From NCBI GenBank assembly GCA_009733715.1, contig WMKJ01000053.1, forward strand, positions 29,175 through 93,174: a DNA stretch of 64,000 bases, given 5' to 3'. The position numbers and the translations under genes are program-made. The notes below the pieces were generated by a model that was not told where the DNA came from, made no database searches, and was given only the letters and a program-made list of their open reading frames with translations. Positions within the stretch are counted from its first letter, which is position 1. Each line of letters begins with the position of its first letter. Positions 12,680 through 52,057 of the stretch are shown here, in pieces. The stretch comes from Herpomyces periplanetae. Its lineage: Eukaryota > Ascomycota > Laboulbeniomycetes > Herpomycetales > Herpomycetaceae.

Positions 12680-14029
12680 CTATTTCTCATCTTTAATTTC
12701 ATCTTCTATCACCCTATTAAAAGTTTGAATAAAATTATCAATCCCCTTGAGTACATTTTCATCACATCCTCGTCCCGGTTCAAAGTGAGCATGCGCAAAA
12801 TCAATTAACTTGACTATCGTAAATGGTGGTCGTGATTCAATCTTCACATCTGAATCCCCCGTTGATTCCCCCTCCATATCATACTCTCCCCCATTTGCTT
12901 CCCCGTAAACTTCACCATTCGTATTCATATCGGTATCATCATCCTCCTCCTCCCCGTACCCCTCATTCCATGTCCCTTGAAAAACTTGGGCATCCCCTTC
13001 GTACACAAATAATAAACTTGCCGAATACATTCGCACCTCATGTCCTGCAATTACATCCCGTACTCTCCGTACCCTTCGTACAAATGATTCCATTATCCTC
13101 TTTTTATACGCTTCTGTAAATCCTTTTCCCTTAACATTTACAAATTCTCGTAGTCCATAATGTACCGTAGACCGTGTAAAGTGTCTTCCATAGAATTTAC
13201 TATACACTCTATATCCAGATTGTTTATCATAAAATATATATTCCCCACCTAGTCCCCCCGCTGGATCATGCTCAACTTCAACACATTTTGTCATCTGGAA
13301 TAATTCATCTCCGTGCAATGAACTCTGCTTCGTATTCACCACACTGACATCTACACCATTCCATACCCGCATTCCCGTTAATCGAAACCCTAAACATCCA
13401 CTCGTAGTTTCTCCCGATACACGATCCAGTTTAACCCTTTTATCATTACTTGCATCATCATCCCATAATCGTGCTCCCAGTTTAACATCCAGTACACACG
13501 GTCGACGAAAATCCGCCGTTAAATTCCCCAGTACTATACACTCATCCGTATCTATTCCCCGACCATAGATCCCATTTTCACTCACTTCATTCGTAAAACT
13601 TCGCTCATTTAACCGTAACGTTCCCATAAAAACCGGCATACACAACGCTAAACTCGGAAATTCCGCTGTAGCTCGTTCATAAAATTCCACCTCCGTCCGT
13701 GTACACGGTTTAATCACCAGATCTCCATTATCATTGCTCATAGCACCACCACTGTAGTTACCCTGACAAAGGAACCGGTACGGCTTGCCCGTCTAACCGG
13801 TTTTGCCAGCTCGTGTGTGGACGTGGTATACGGCCACGCACGAGCTGGCACCGTCCTGGATAAGTTAATGATAAGCTTAAAAGTTCACAATCATAATTAA
13901 CCCCTACAAAATCTCCCCTACTAAATTCTTCCATAACCATACTATACCATACACAAATACTTACTGTCCAGCTGCCGCATGTTCAAACTTTCGCAACCCT
14001 GATGTTATATCTCCCGTATCTGAATTCAT
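12680..14029 (-). CDS. ARG82: Inositol polyphosphate multikinase (two exons)
   Basis: IPMK phosphorylates inositol trisphosphate to higher inositol phosphates; yeast Arg82 also works with the ArgR-Mcm1 transcription complex. Exon 1 is 14029-13965 and ends in KFEHAAAGH, the conserved start of the family; the donor is GTAAGT. Exon 2 is 13751-12680 (acceptor TACAG). The join completes the His codon and continues GGAMSNDNGDLVIKPC. Together they give 378 residues. Hallmarks are the PxxxDxKxG inositol-binding motif (PCVLDVKLG), SLLFVYEG and the metal-binding IDFAHA near the C-terminus. An acidic stretch (EEEDDDTDMN) precedes the last motif. The 213-nt intron carries two strong hairpins. The gene is divergent from La-Arb1 and convergent with TYW1. 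Confidence 0.9.
13773..13802. other. Small hairpin within the IPMK intron
   Basis: AACCGGT (13773-13779) pairs with ACCGGTT (13796-13802), and the inner ACGG/CCGT extends the stem. It lies directly beside a longer hairpin. Confidence 0.5.
13804..13850. other. 17-bp perfect-like hairpin within the IPMK intron
   Basis: The left arm TGCCAGCTCGTGTGTGG (13804-13820) pairs with CCACGCACGAGCTGGCA (13834-13850), 16 of 17 positions Watson-Crick and one G-U/A-C type mismatch depending on strand, with a 13-nt loop. It is much more GC-rich than its surroundings. It could be a processed intronic RNA, a transcription-factor palindrome or a splicing-related structure; the sequence alone does not decide. 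Confidence 0.65.
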
Positions 14030-14456
14030 TGTATATATCTAACTCTGTTATCCCAACCTTTATCCAATCCAAATAACTTTAACAATGCTCCCACAAAGAA
14101 TTATACACAACTGAACTAACATATAAGGCATACTGAACCATCACCATACGACACTCTGTGCGCTTGCGAGGCGAAGCGAAACCAAAAAAATATTTCCCGA
14201 CGAAACCTCCACCTCAGCCCTACCCGGACCCACTTTTACCCCTCATCTCGTCTCATCTCAACCGTTTATCGCTACCTTCCCTGCTCCCCCCCCTCGCTCT
14301 TTCCCCCAATCGTCCCCCTCCACATGTTCCCCACGTGACCCCCACAGTCACATGTATACCTTCGGGTGCCGAAAATCTTTTTTTTCGTCGTTAAATTTTT
14401 GCTTGGAATGATAATTAACGGTAAAAAATGTCTCATGAATTTCTTCAATTTACATT
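14030..14456. promoter_or_regulatory. Divergent promoter region between IPMK and La-Arb1
   Basis: About 430 bp lie between the two start codons. CACGTGACC is at 14332-14340, 120 bp before the La-Arb1 start, within a long plus-strand pyrimidine-rich tract (14190-14340). A second related site, GTCACATG, follows at 14347. Confidence 0.45.
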
Positions 14457-14460
14457 ATGA
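14428..14460 (+). other. uORF overlapping the La-Arb1 start codon
   Basis: ATG at 14428 opens a 10-codon frame whose TGA (14458-14460) shares two bases with the main ATG (14457-14459), giving ATGA. This arrangement permits termination-coupled re-initiation and may lower or regulate expression; that is inference. Confidence 0.5.
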
Positions 14461-16335
14461 CTTCCGTGCAAATTGAAAGTTCTCGATTGGAAAAAATTCG
14501 TCGCCAGGCAAGTGCTCATGTGTGTACCAAGTCTTTCCCTACTGTTCCCACTAACATAATCTTGCAAGGAAAATTATCAAAAACCTTCACAATTAGGTAG
14601 AATATTATTTTTCAGATCAAAATTTAGCCCGCGATGTCTACATGCTGGAAGCCTGTGAAGGTTCGGAAAACGTCCCCGTCCGTTTAAGCCAAATTTGTTC
14701 GTTTAATCGTATGAAACGTTACAAAAATCGCGACCAAATTATCACAGCACTTCGTACAAGTCAGTTTATCGAACTTGTTCAATTCGATGATTCCCATACG
14801 GATAACCTGGCCGTACGTCGTATAACTCCCGTTAACGAAGCCCATCTTGATACCTTGCGTGGTCTGGTCAATGCAAATAATCCAAACCCTCATATTACTC
14901 CCAAGGTTAGTAGTTAGAATTTGCCCTGTACTCAACATATATTATGCTCACCACATCATAATGTCATTAACACTTTTCCCGTACTCTGCACTTACTCCCG
15001 CAGGCTAAGAGAAAACCTAAACCGGTCGATTTTTTGGAAAATTTACCCGATAATCCAGTCACCCCCACCGAATTTGCTGAAGATAGGGAAATTTATACAC
15101 TAGACATCCCCTTCAGTACTCGAATTGAAATCGCCGTGCAACGGTATACGCAAAAGCGGCATTTTCCTAACCTTGCATCCCATTTATTTAACGCTTGGCT
15201 ACGCTATGGCGGTTGGGAAACCGGTCCACGACAATTTACCGGTAAAGATCCGCGTGAACTCGCTGGTCATGATCCTGCAGATGTTGCTTTACTCATGGCA
15301 ACTCATTTTGTCGGCTCTGATAAAGATGATCCTGTTGAATGGGTCGTCGACTTTCCCGGTGTAGTCAGCGGATTTCTTACATCTCACTTTGAAACTGTTA
15401 CACCTATTACTCTACAGTCAATTCAATTGGCATGTAGGATTATTCGAAACTTTCTTAATTATCTATTACATCGCAACGTTTGTCCCGATTATTCACATCA
15501 GGTTAACACGGCTCGACAAATTTGCGATCAAGCTTGTCACCAATACACTAACTTACTCACCCTTAAGGCTGGTTTACCCGGTCCATTTAATACCGCAGTT
15601 ATCATTGCTCTAGGGAAAAATTATGATTCTACTACTGCCCCCGATGAGATTAACCCTTACTTTGGCTATCGAGTTCCTTCACCTACGTGTGAATGGCAAC
15701 CTGAACCACATCCCTTGGATACCTCGACGGCCGAATGTATTCTGTTAGCTGGATTGCAGGCTGTCAATTCCACAGCTATACAATCATTTCTCGAATCGAC
15801 ACCTCGTGTTGAATGGGCCAAAACATTGGCTAGTGAATGTTCAATACAACGATATGAGGTAACCTTAACCGTTAGGGAAATTCACTTACCATCCCGTGAA
15901 ACTATACTTTGGTATGAAAAGGTAAATAAAGATATTAAACATAGTACTCTTAATACTTCTCCACTCCAACCCATTGGTTCGTTAGTATGCGGTTACTGGG
16001 ATTTACCAACGTTTGAATGTTGGGGATTACCATCGCCTGAAAAAAGAGAAGGTTTATGGTATCCGGGGGCACGGGGGATTTTACGCCAGAGTATAACTAT
16101 TTATTTGGAACAGTATCTACTGGACAAGTGTATAATTGGTATGAAATTTACGGGTAACGTGGTTCACTTGAGTATGACGAATGGATTGAACGTATGGTGT
16201 TTAGAACGTGTTAACAATGTTTACCCAACTTTCTACACTTTACTTTACAACGAGGTACACATGCAAGAACAAGAATTCCAAAAATGTCGCTGGGGCAGTG
16301 CCACGTCTTCCAAACAAAAGGATGTCGATGGATAG
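14457..16335 (+). CDS. La-motif / Arb1 (argonaute siRNA chaperone) fusion protein
   Basis: Three exons: 14457-14507, 14597-14905, 15004-16335, 563 residues. Intron 1 is a GC-AG intron (CAG then GCAAGT ... AATTAG); intron 2 is GTTAGT ... CGCAG. Exons 1-2 form a La motif: IRRQ joins VEYYFSDQNLARDVY, then SFNRMKRY and a winged-helix end, about residues 14-90. This fold binds RNA 3' ends. No RRM follows. Exon 3 matches the Arb1 family: a GGWETGPR stretch, VEWVVDFPGVVSGFL, then NFLNYLLHRNVCPDYSHQ. In fission yeast Arb1 with Arb2 holds duplex siRNA on Ago1 before RITS. I know of no La-motif/Arb1 fusion. The alternative, two adjacent genes, would leave a La-motif-only protein of about 124 residues and an Arb1 without start codon. 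The stop lies 13 bp from that of convergent GH72. Confidence 0.8.
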
Positions 16336-16348
16336 GGGGTACATTTCT

Positions 16349-19321: not shown

Positions 19322-21484
19322 TTACGCTTCGTTTTGGCGAGCAGTGATGCTCATTTCGCAGGATTTTTTGGCCATGCGAAACGGTGATTCGCCCTTTTCC
19401 CAGAATGCTTCTTGCTCATTTGACGAACAGCATCCGTAATTGAAAAATAGTTCTTCGCCGGCCACTATGTTTCGTTTGGCAAAAAATCCAATTCGATACA
19501 CTCCATTACAAAATAATACTTTGGGAACACAATTTATATTCTCGTCCCGGGATGAATGATTGATAAACCGAAATTTATTTCCGCGTTTCGTACTATCAAT
19601 TTCTTGTCGCATATTCAACGAAAATAAATAAAGGGTCCTATAGTGATGATATACAACTCCGCGACGAATGGCTTCCTTACTACTCACTATTTCGCCTTTA
19701 TACTCGCCCAAAAAATCGCCCATTTTAACATTCTCCCCTGCAAATAATCCAATTCCGTGTACTTGACTCGCTCCGATAAACATCTTTTTAGGTACATCCC
19801 GCTGCAAATTAACATTCTCACAAACTGGTTTATCCCTCGACCCCGTCCCATGCCAATCCAATGTTTCCTTACACAAACATCCCTTACACATATCAGGATC
19901 GCATTCCCGATTTAAATTAAAACAATCACAATTCTTATCATTCCAACATATTCCTCCCGCTCCCGACGAATTATTACCCGCTGTACTCGAGCATGAACAT
20001 CCCGTAAATCGATATCGACACGCCGAATCACACTGGCAAAACTTTTCACATAAAACTCCCTGCTCATAGCATGAACAATTCGACGATTGTTCACATTTCC
20101 CCGTATGTGAACATGGTACCAATGGCCCTCTCTCATGTAACAAACTCGTTTGACTAAATCGAACCGAATAATTCAATGATGTATTCCACGCTCGCCTCTG
20201 TAACCCTGTACTATTCGATCCATTAACATCTCCATTATTCATTCCTTTGGCCCATTCTCCCGATTTTGTTATCAAACTTTTATTGTTAATTCTCCGCGAT
20301 TTAGCATACATCATCCCCCGCTTCTCTAATAACCCCCATTTTTTATACCGCTCTCGACTCTCTTCCTTCATCCTCTTCACCGTCCACCTCTTAACCCTTT
20401 CACCACACGACCTTGAAGATCTCGTTGAACTACTACTACTTTCCCCATCACTATCTCCATCACTTTCATCCCGATTCTCCCCGTGTACCGTACAAAAGTG
20501 AACATGACATATCTCACATGCCAGCCCCGAAAAGTCTGCTTCGCTATCCTTCCCTTGCTCTAACTCTTTCACTACCTCCCCTCCTTCGTCTACCACATCT
20601 CCAATCCCCATATACGCTACCTTGCGTCGTACCAAATGCCATAAACTAATCCCCATAACCTTCAAATACGCTCGACACGCCAAACCTGCAATCTCCAACT
20701 CATCATCCTTAACCCTTTCACAATATTCAAGTAAAACTTTCCAGTATTCATACTCTTTATCAAAATCTTCCACCCTCCCACTACTACCCCCCTTACTATC
20801 TTCGTTTGCCTTAATATACCCTAACCGTTTAGCATTTTTACTCCCTTGCCGCAAAAATTCCACCAGAATCGCCTTCCACGAACACCCCACATCACTTATA
20901 AATCGCTCTGCATAAACTTCAAATTCTTTGCAATGCTCCACAACTCTAATAAATTCCACTTGTTCATCACATCGTAAATTGAATGATTCTTGTAAATCTT
21001 CGTATAATCCATCTTTAACCCGTGCAAGTGTTTCTTCATCGTTGGAAAATGTAGGCCAATATTGAAGTTCATCATTATTTTCCGCAATCCGATTCTGACT
21101 TAGGCTAACGTACATGTTAAATTCCGGCAGGTTTATCGTTTCATCGTGAATTCGCTGAATTTCTCCGTAAATTTCACTCTTACTTCCCCTACGTCCGTCC
21201 AATATATCCTGCGTAAATGCTAACCAGTCAATTCCTTCCTTACCGGCACACTTGCCATTGTTATCTCCCCCCTGCTTTAAAAATGGTGATTCTACCGCAT
21301 TGCTAAAATCTCGTTTGCCCAATTGTTCACGAGCCAAACTTAAGGCTTTCCGCACTCGTCTTTCATGGTCTTGATGATAAGTTTTTTTATGCTTCATCAA
21401 TAAACCCTCCACTTCATAAAGTTGAACTCCTCCCCTACCAAATCCACCACCCCCCATCTCATATCCCATCGTTTCTTCTGCCAT
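19322..21484 (-). CDS. EZH2/E(z)-type histone H3-K27 methyltransferase
   Basis: The catalytic subunit of Polycomb repressive complex 2, trimethylating H3K27 to hold facultative heterochromatin. One exon, 720 residues, close to animal EZH2. Parts in order: an N-terminal region with a basic start; a SANT-like/central region with the CEICHVHFCTVHG zinc motif; acidic and Ser-rich linker; the CXC pre-SET (CSCYEQGVLCEKFCQCD and CWNDKNCDCFN); and a C-terminal SET domain with VHGIGLFAGENV, FRFINHSS and GEELFFNYG. Pre-SET CXC followed directly by SET is diagnostic for this family against SUV39 or SET1. The ATG at 21484 follows pyrimidine-rich DNA; CACGTGAT at 21897 is 413 bp upstream. Confidence 0.92.
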   Translation of the reverse strand: MAEETMGYEMGGGGFGRGGVQLYEVEGLLMKHKKTYHQDHERRVRKALSLAREQLGKRDFSNAVESPFLKQGGDNNGKCAGKEGIDWLAFTQDILDGRRGSKSEIYGEIQRIHDETINLPEFNMYVSLSQNRIAENNDELQYWPTFSNDEETLARVKDGLYEDLQESFNLRCDEQVEFIRVVEHCKEFEVYAERFISDVGCSWKAILVEFLRQGSKNAKRLGYIKANEDSKGGSSGRVEDFDKEYEYWKVLLEYCERVKDDELEIAGLACRAYLKVMGISLWHLVRRKVAYMGIGDVVDEGGEVVKELEQGKDSEADFSGLACEICHVHFCTVHGENRDESDGDSDGESSSSSTRSSRSCGERVKRWTVKRMKEESRERYKKWGLLEKRGMMYAKSRRINNKSLITKSGEWAKGMNNGDVNGSNSTGLQRRAWNTSLNYSVRFSQTSLLHERGPLVPCSHTGKCEQSSNCSCYEQGVLCEKFCQCDSACRYRFTGCSCSSTAGNNSSGAGGICWNDKNCDCFNLNRECDPDMCKGCLCKETLDWHGTGSRDKPVCENVNLQRDVPKKMFIGASQVHGIGLFAGENVKMGDFLGEYKGEIVSSKEAIRRGVVYHHYRTLYLFSLNMRQEIDSTKRGNKFRFINHSSRDENINCVPKVLFCNGVYRIGFFAKRNIVAGEELFFNYGCCSSNEQEAFWEKGESPFRMAKKSCEMSITARQNEA

Positions 21485-51914: not shown

Positions 51915-52057
51915 GTCTCCATGGTCTAGTTGGTTATGACGCCGGTCTCATAGCTGCGGTCGCCCCTCCCCCCCCCGGGCCCCGCCCCTGGCCTATGATC
52001 CGACGGCCCAACGTCGGAGCTATCCGGAGGTCGCGAGTTCGATCCTCGCTGGAGGCA
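51915..52057 (+). tRNA. Elongator tRNA-Met (anticodon CAT) with 69-nt intron
   Basis: Acceptor GTCTCCA (51915-51921) pairs with TGGAGGC (52050-52056), discriminator A. The D arm contains AGTTGGTTA; anticodon stem CCGGT with loop CTCATA (CAT at 51949-51951). The intron starts after position 37 (51953-52021). The 3' exon gives TCCGG of the anticodon stem, then the T arm GCGAG-TTCGATC-CTCGC. The terminal anticodon pair is T-T. A TTTT Pol III terminator is at 52064-52067. CAT with this body is elongator, not initiator, Met. The intron contains a run of ten C and is much richer in G+C than its surroundings. Confidence 0.87.
51953..52021 (+). other. Intron of tRNA-Met
   Basis: Begins directly after the purine 3' to the anticodon, the canonical position for eukaryotic tRNA introns. 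It contains CCCCCCCCCCGGGCCCCG and a CCGACGGCCCAACGTCGG stem-loop (about 52000-52017). Confidence 0.75.

Follow-up and report, generated by a model that had tools for sequence, protein, structure and literature searches.

In S. pombe, Arb1 and Arb2 have been reported to be required for the loading of siRNA duplexes on Ago1 and to inhibit the release of the passenger strand (PMC5985592). Purified Arb1 inhibits slicing by Ago1 in vitro, as stated in a review (PMC13136243), which also describes the products of Dicer as ending in a 3'-OH with 2-nt 3' overhangs (PMC13136243). As for La motifs, that of LARP1, which functions without an RRM, was described to bind RNA via the free 3'-OH and the last two nucleotides (PMC9458460), and the corresponding pocket of LARP6 is used for a stem-loop, independently of the 3'-OH (PMC4288179). 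The La motif of Tetrahymena Mlp1 alone does not bind uridylate RNA according to the account of this protein, but needs its middle domain, too (PMC9705548). A La protein has also been connected with RNAi: in Drosophila, La reportedly enhances the turnover of RISC (Liu et al. 2011, as cited in PMC7528652), and disruption of the La orthologue of N. castellii is stated to have little effect on RNAi (PMC7528652).

Here, a window of 64,000 nucleotides of the fungus Herpomyces periplanetae (contig WMKJ01000053.1, positions 29,175 to 93,174) was analysed, in which a La motif and an Arb1 domain are predicted to be parts of a single protein, termed La-Arb1 in the following. With the Arb1 subunit of the S. 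pombe Argonaute siRNA chaperone (ARC) complex it shares the Arb1 domain (Pfam family PF09692), here nearly full-length (positions 4-399 of the 403 of the profile), and it differs from this subunit by its N-terminal La motif; we know of no La motif in S. pombe Arb1. LARP1 resembles La-Arb1 in having a La motif without an adjoining RRM, and in LARP1 this motif binds RNA 3' ends by itself; however, LARP1 is tied to poly(A) mRNA and carries different regions at its C-terminal side, whereas the partner in La-Arb1 is Arb1 and a tyrosine occupies the position of LARP1 F348. In Tetrahymena Mlp1 and the alveolate La proteins, the La motif is likewise followed by a non-RRM domain, but this partner consists of a middle region and DUF3223, and the RNAs are pre-tRNAs. 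Drosophila La is a La protein acting in RNAi, in the turnover of RISC, yet as a separate protein, in trans and unfused to an Argonaute partner.

Besides La-Arb1, the window carries GH72, a TYW1-like gene, IPK, Sec1, Sec8, SNF2 and an EZH2-like gene. The latter, a SET-domain gene on the minus strand (19325-21484), ~3 kb from La-Arb1, is most like EZH2/EZH1 (best chain 4mi5, E 2.2e-45), with a SET match at E 2.1e-21 and a CXC domain slightly below its cut-off; EZH2 and EZH1 are Polycomb H3K27 methyltransferases. Among structure chains, the two best for a fragment of uL2 reach 315.6 and 312.5 bits, and we take them to be from Chaetomium and Neurospora, respectively; a third chain, presumably from S. 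pombe, is lower at 273.3 bits, and the chains nearest the eRF1 of the window are presumably human. By these comparisons, the DNA probably stems from an ascomycete-like fungus. On the plus strand, an Rfam tRNA match of 44.4 bits at 51915-52057 stretches over 143 nt, for which reason this tRNA probably contains a long intron; ARAGORN, run with bacterial settings, lists none.

Organization of the La-Arb1 gene

The predicted gene lies on the plus strand and comprises three exons. Exon 1 (14457-14507, 51 nt) holds the start codon and encodes 17 residues, of which the last four are IRRQ in the joined translation. A GC-AG intron of 89 nt (intron 1, 14508-14596) separates it from exon 2 (14597-14905, 309 nt), whose 103 codons encode the remainder of the La motif and a linker. 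After a second intron of the GT-AG type (14906-15003, 98 nt), exon 3 (15004-16335, 1332 nt) encodes the Arb1 domain and ends with the stop codon. Spliced together, the three exons translate into 563 aa and then the stop, the frame being unbroken throughout; upstream of the start codon, there is an in-frame stop at 14436. Exon 2 is in phase 0 at both its 5' and 3' ends, so that skipping of this exon would leave Arb1 without La in an intact frame.

A uORF of 10 codons (MSHEFLQFTL, 14428-14460) runs into the gene, its TGA overlapping the La-Arb1 start codon (ATGA). At the other end, 13 nt (16336-16348) separate the La-Arb1 stop (16335) from the stop of the convergent GH72 gene (16349); in a discussion of the RNAi genes of S. 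pombe, most of them are described as lying in convergent pairs and as self-regulating that way (PMC3900390).

In the Pfam scan that the initial annotation had proposed, La and Arb1 both score above their curated cut-offs on the joined protein: (i) La (PF05383) matches residues 14-70 with an E of 6.1e-19 and 68.1 bits (cut-off 37.1; profile positions 1-58 of 59), and (ii) Arb1 (PF09692) matches residues 121-541 with an E of 2.1e-85 and 287.8 bits (cut-off 25; profile positions 4-399 of 403). Besides these two, no family appears in the joined protein at E up to 1. Exon 2 by itself reaches just 63.2 bits for La (E 2e-17), and the score rises to 68.1 bits once exon 1 is joined, with IRRQ as the first four residues of the match; exon 1 thus contributes La sequence. 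Exon 3 by itself reaches 287.9 bits for Arb1 (E 2e-85, profile positions 5-399 of 403), and since this match opens at the second residue of the exon, intron 2 marks the border between the La and the Arb1 part. The initial reading of the locus, three exons in one frame encoding a La motif and then Arb1, is hence borne out by the joined translation and by Pfam, and so is its remark that no RRM follows the La motif: Pfam finds no RRM in the joined protein at E up to 1, and the alignment of the La part to the solved chain 2m5w stops at residue 97 while the Arb1 match opens at 121, which leaves a linker of ~23 residues, too short for an RRM. At the sequence level, an architecture of La motif and Arb1 without RRM is well supported.

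Further searches with the predicted protein returned little. NCBIfam gave 0 families for the first 202 residues, and the solved structures matching the Arb1 domain by sequence amounted to three weak hits only, the best at E 0.69. AlphaFold modelling, likewise proposed at the outset and carried out in single-sequence mode, yielded a mean pLDDT of 39.3 for exon 2 and of 34.5 for exon 3, too poor to use.

Splice signals and the number of genes

The donor of intron 1, CAG/GCAAGT, is strong apart from its GC; the intron ends in TTAG and has a CTAAC site at -46. Joining this donor to 14596 yields IRRQVEYYFSD, of which QVEYYFSD recurs unchanged in 2m5w, a solved La chain. This intron was chosen among 19 in-frame donor/acceptor pairs (GT or GC donors); the others were rejected, as they add, lose or alter residues of this stretch. 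Intron 2 begins with GTTAGT, ends in CCGCAG and shows a TTAAC site at -37. It has 14 in-frame pairs with GT donors; combining its donor with the acceptor 15009 instead would produce a possible alternative of 561 aa.

The donor of intron 2, GTTAGT, ranks first of the 109 GTs in the gene when scored with a donor matrix, although its 7.75 bits fall towards the bottom of the scores of the training introns (7.4-12.5). The matrix was trained on eight other introns of the window (49 to 124 nt), which were chosen by eye in conserved genes, namely Sec1, GH72 (two introns), eRF1, Sec8 (two) and uL2 (two), and whose junctions were fixed by reading frames rather than by an alignment of relatives. One of the eight, in uL2, has a GTTTGT donor and thereby a T at the third position, as in intron 2. 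Because the matrix is small, it supports the predicted intron 2 without proving it.

If intron 2 is read through, translation encounters a TAG at once (14915-14917), and a transcript form retaining the intron may exist. The locus could therefore be read as two neighbouring genes, one for a small La-motif protein of ~123 aa that terminates at the TAG 14917, the other for Arb1. An ATG of its own for the Arb1 part, which the initial annotation had associated with two genes, was looked for; however, the first one in the exon-3 reading frame is at 15295, well within the Arb1 match. The two ATGs that intron 2 holds open frames of just 5 and 15 codons before a stop. First exons outside the La exons were sought with ATGs at 13801-14456 and 14906-15294, allowing eight donor tetramers and introns between 40 and 700 nt, which left six combinations: five require introns of >600 nt, and the sixth relies on an exon of 20 nt and would encroach on the Arb1 start. 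When the scan was widened to ATGs from 13901 onwards with any GT donor and introns between 40 and 400 nt, 98 combinations were obtained, of which the best 25 all start inside exon 2. Two separate genes are thus very improbable, since Arb1 has no ATG in its frame before 15295 and the intron-2 donor is top-ranked, and this model, in which Arb1 would be left without a reasonable start, was dropped; almost certainly, as far as can be judged from the sequence, La-Arb1 is a single fused gene. A join introduced by the assembly was rejected as well, the G+C content showing no step between the exons (0.412 in exon 1 and 0.421 in both exons 2 and 3, with 0.382 and 0.398 in the introns), which is weak evidence, composition alone being compared.

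The La pocket and its putative RNA ends

The pocket of LARP6 makes its contacts by Q99, F102, Y103, D112, F114 and F135 as listed for this protein (PMC4288179), and Q20, Y23 and D33 are named as pocket residues of human La in the Tetrahymena paper (PMC9705548). By the spacing in LARP6, the pocket of La-Arb1 is formed by Q17, Y20, Y21, D30, Y32 and F53. For the spacing match, Y24, F35 and F55 were assumed to be the further counterparts in human La. Q17 is the last codon of exon 1, and the GC-AG intron 1 interrupts the La motif straight after this pocket glutamine. Q17, Y20, Y21, D30 and F53, five of the six residues, are identical to those of the La chain 2m5w, and Y32 replaces a phenylalanine. 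Measured from Q333, this site corresponds to F348 of LARP1, reported to be among the three most critical residues (PMC9458460), and the change from F to Y may therefore affect function. As to the class of LARP, the La motif matches chains of La, LARP7, LARP6 and LARP1 within 38.1-31.2 bits among the best seven hits.

The tyrosine in the pocket and the lack of an RRM partner, together with the failure of the Mlp1 La motif alone to bind uridylate RNA (PMC9705548), could be taken to indicate that the fusion is real, but that its La motif has lost the binding of RNA 3' ends and serves as a module for protein contacts or localisation instead. Such a loss appears unlikely, given the identity of five of the six pocket residues with 2m5w and the ability of the LARP1 La motif to bind by itself (PMC9458460). 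The La motif of La-Arb1 is thus read as a binder of RNA 3' ends, a property that we regard as likely. An RNA-3'-end module of its own for siRNA or siRNA precursors is plausible for this protein, considering the pocket residues that are kept and the precedent of LARP1.

With respect to the RNA that is bound, the La motif might recruit Ago1 and Arb1 to RNAs with a U tail, to RNAs made by pol III or to other precursors, rather than grip siRNA on Argonaute. Genuine La was described to bind the 3' UUU-OH of nascent pol III transcripts (PMC4288179), but its high-affinity specificity for U also needs RRM1 (PMC9705548), which is absent here, and we are inclined to doubt this kind of recruitment. That the bound RNA is an siRNA or an siRNA precursor can be suggested tentatively, at somewhat less than an even chance.

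A proposed role in the ARC complex

The predicted protein probably acts as Arb1. La-Arb1 would then be the Arb1 subunit of the ARC complex, together with Ago1 and Arb2: its Arb1 part, going by what is known of the family, would help to load duplex siRNA and hold back the release of the passenger strand, and its La motif may, with less confidence, grip the free 3'-OH end of the small RNA within the complex. The likeliest RNA end would be that of the passenger strand with its 2-nt 3' overhang or, alternatively, the tail of a precursor; a grip on this end would tether the duplex, slow strand release or protect the end from exonucleases. In the simplest joint reading, the La motif would hold a Dicer-type RNA end and Arb1 would hold Ago1. 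Taken as a whole, an Arb1 subunit of ARC with its own 3'-end-binding module is the best explanation that we can offer, if a tentative one. Counted against it are the tyrosine at the site of LARP1 F348, the N. castellii result (PMC7528652), the use of the LARP6 pocket for a stem-loop (PMC4288179) and the behaviour of Mlp1 (PMC9705548).

As the Mlp1 La motif binds uridylate RNA only with the middle domain, the comparison suggests that Arb1 could fill the role of RRM1. Carried further, Arb1 might stand in for RRM1 such that La motif and Arb1 form a composite pocket reading the 2-nt 3'-OH overhang left by Dicer; the loading complex would thereby verify a genuine siRNA end and keep the passenger strand by it until it is cut. 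This elaboration is decidedly unlikely.

The initial annotation was aware of no description of this architecture, and this stands for the literature covered: in open-licence full texts, no pairing of Arb1 with a La motif or La domain was found, and the excerpt of an open-licence text naming PF09692 makes no mention of La. It is likely that the La-Arb1 architecture has not been described so far. This arrangement could nonetheless be old and widespread in this fungal lineage, an overlooked standard form of Arb1, in that the collections scanned for relatives consisted of viruses and prokaryotes; there, 5 stretches in viral contigs and 23 in prokaryote genomes matched the Arb1 part and 0 were confirmed in either, as expected for a fungal gene. 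On the other hand, the 403-position Pfam model of Arb1 begins after the La motif, which implies a family alignment without it, and the open-licence literature is without the pair. A widespread La-Arb1 form is accordingly a serious possibility, albeit the less probable course. We know of no structural-level explanation for the maintenance of double-stranded siRNA on Ago1 by ARC, and a natural fusion of Arb1 to a domain that holds RNA 3' ends hints at the portion of the RNA on which the chaperone may act.
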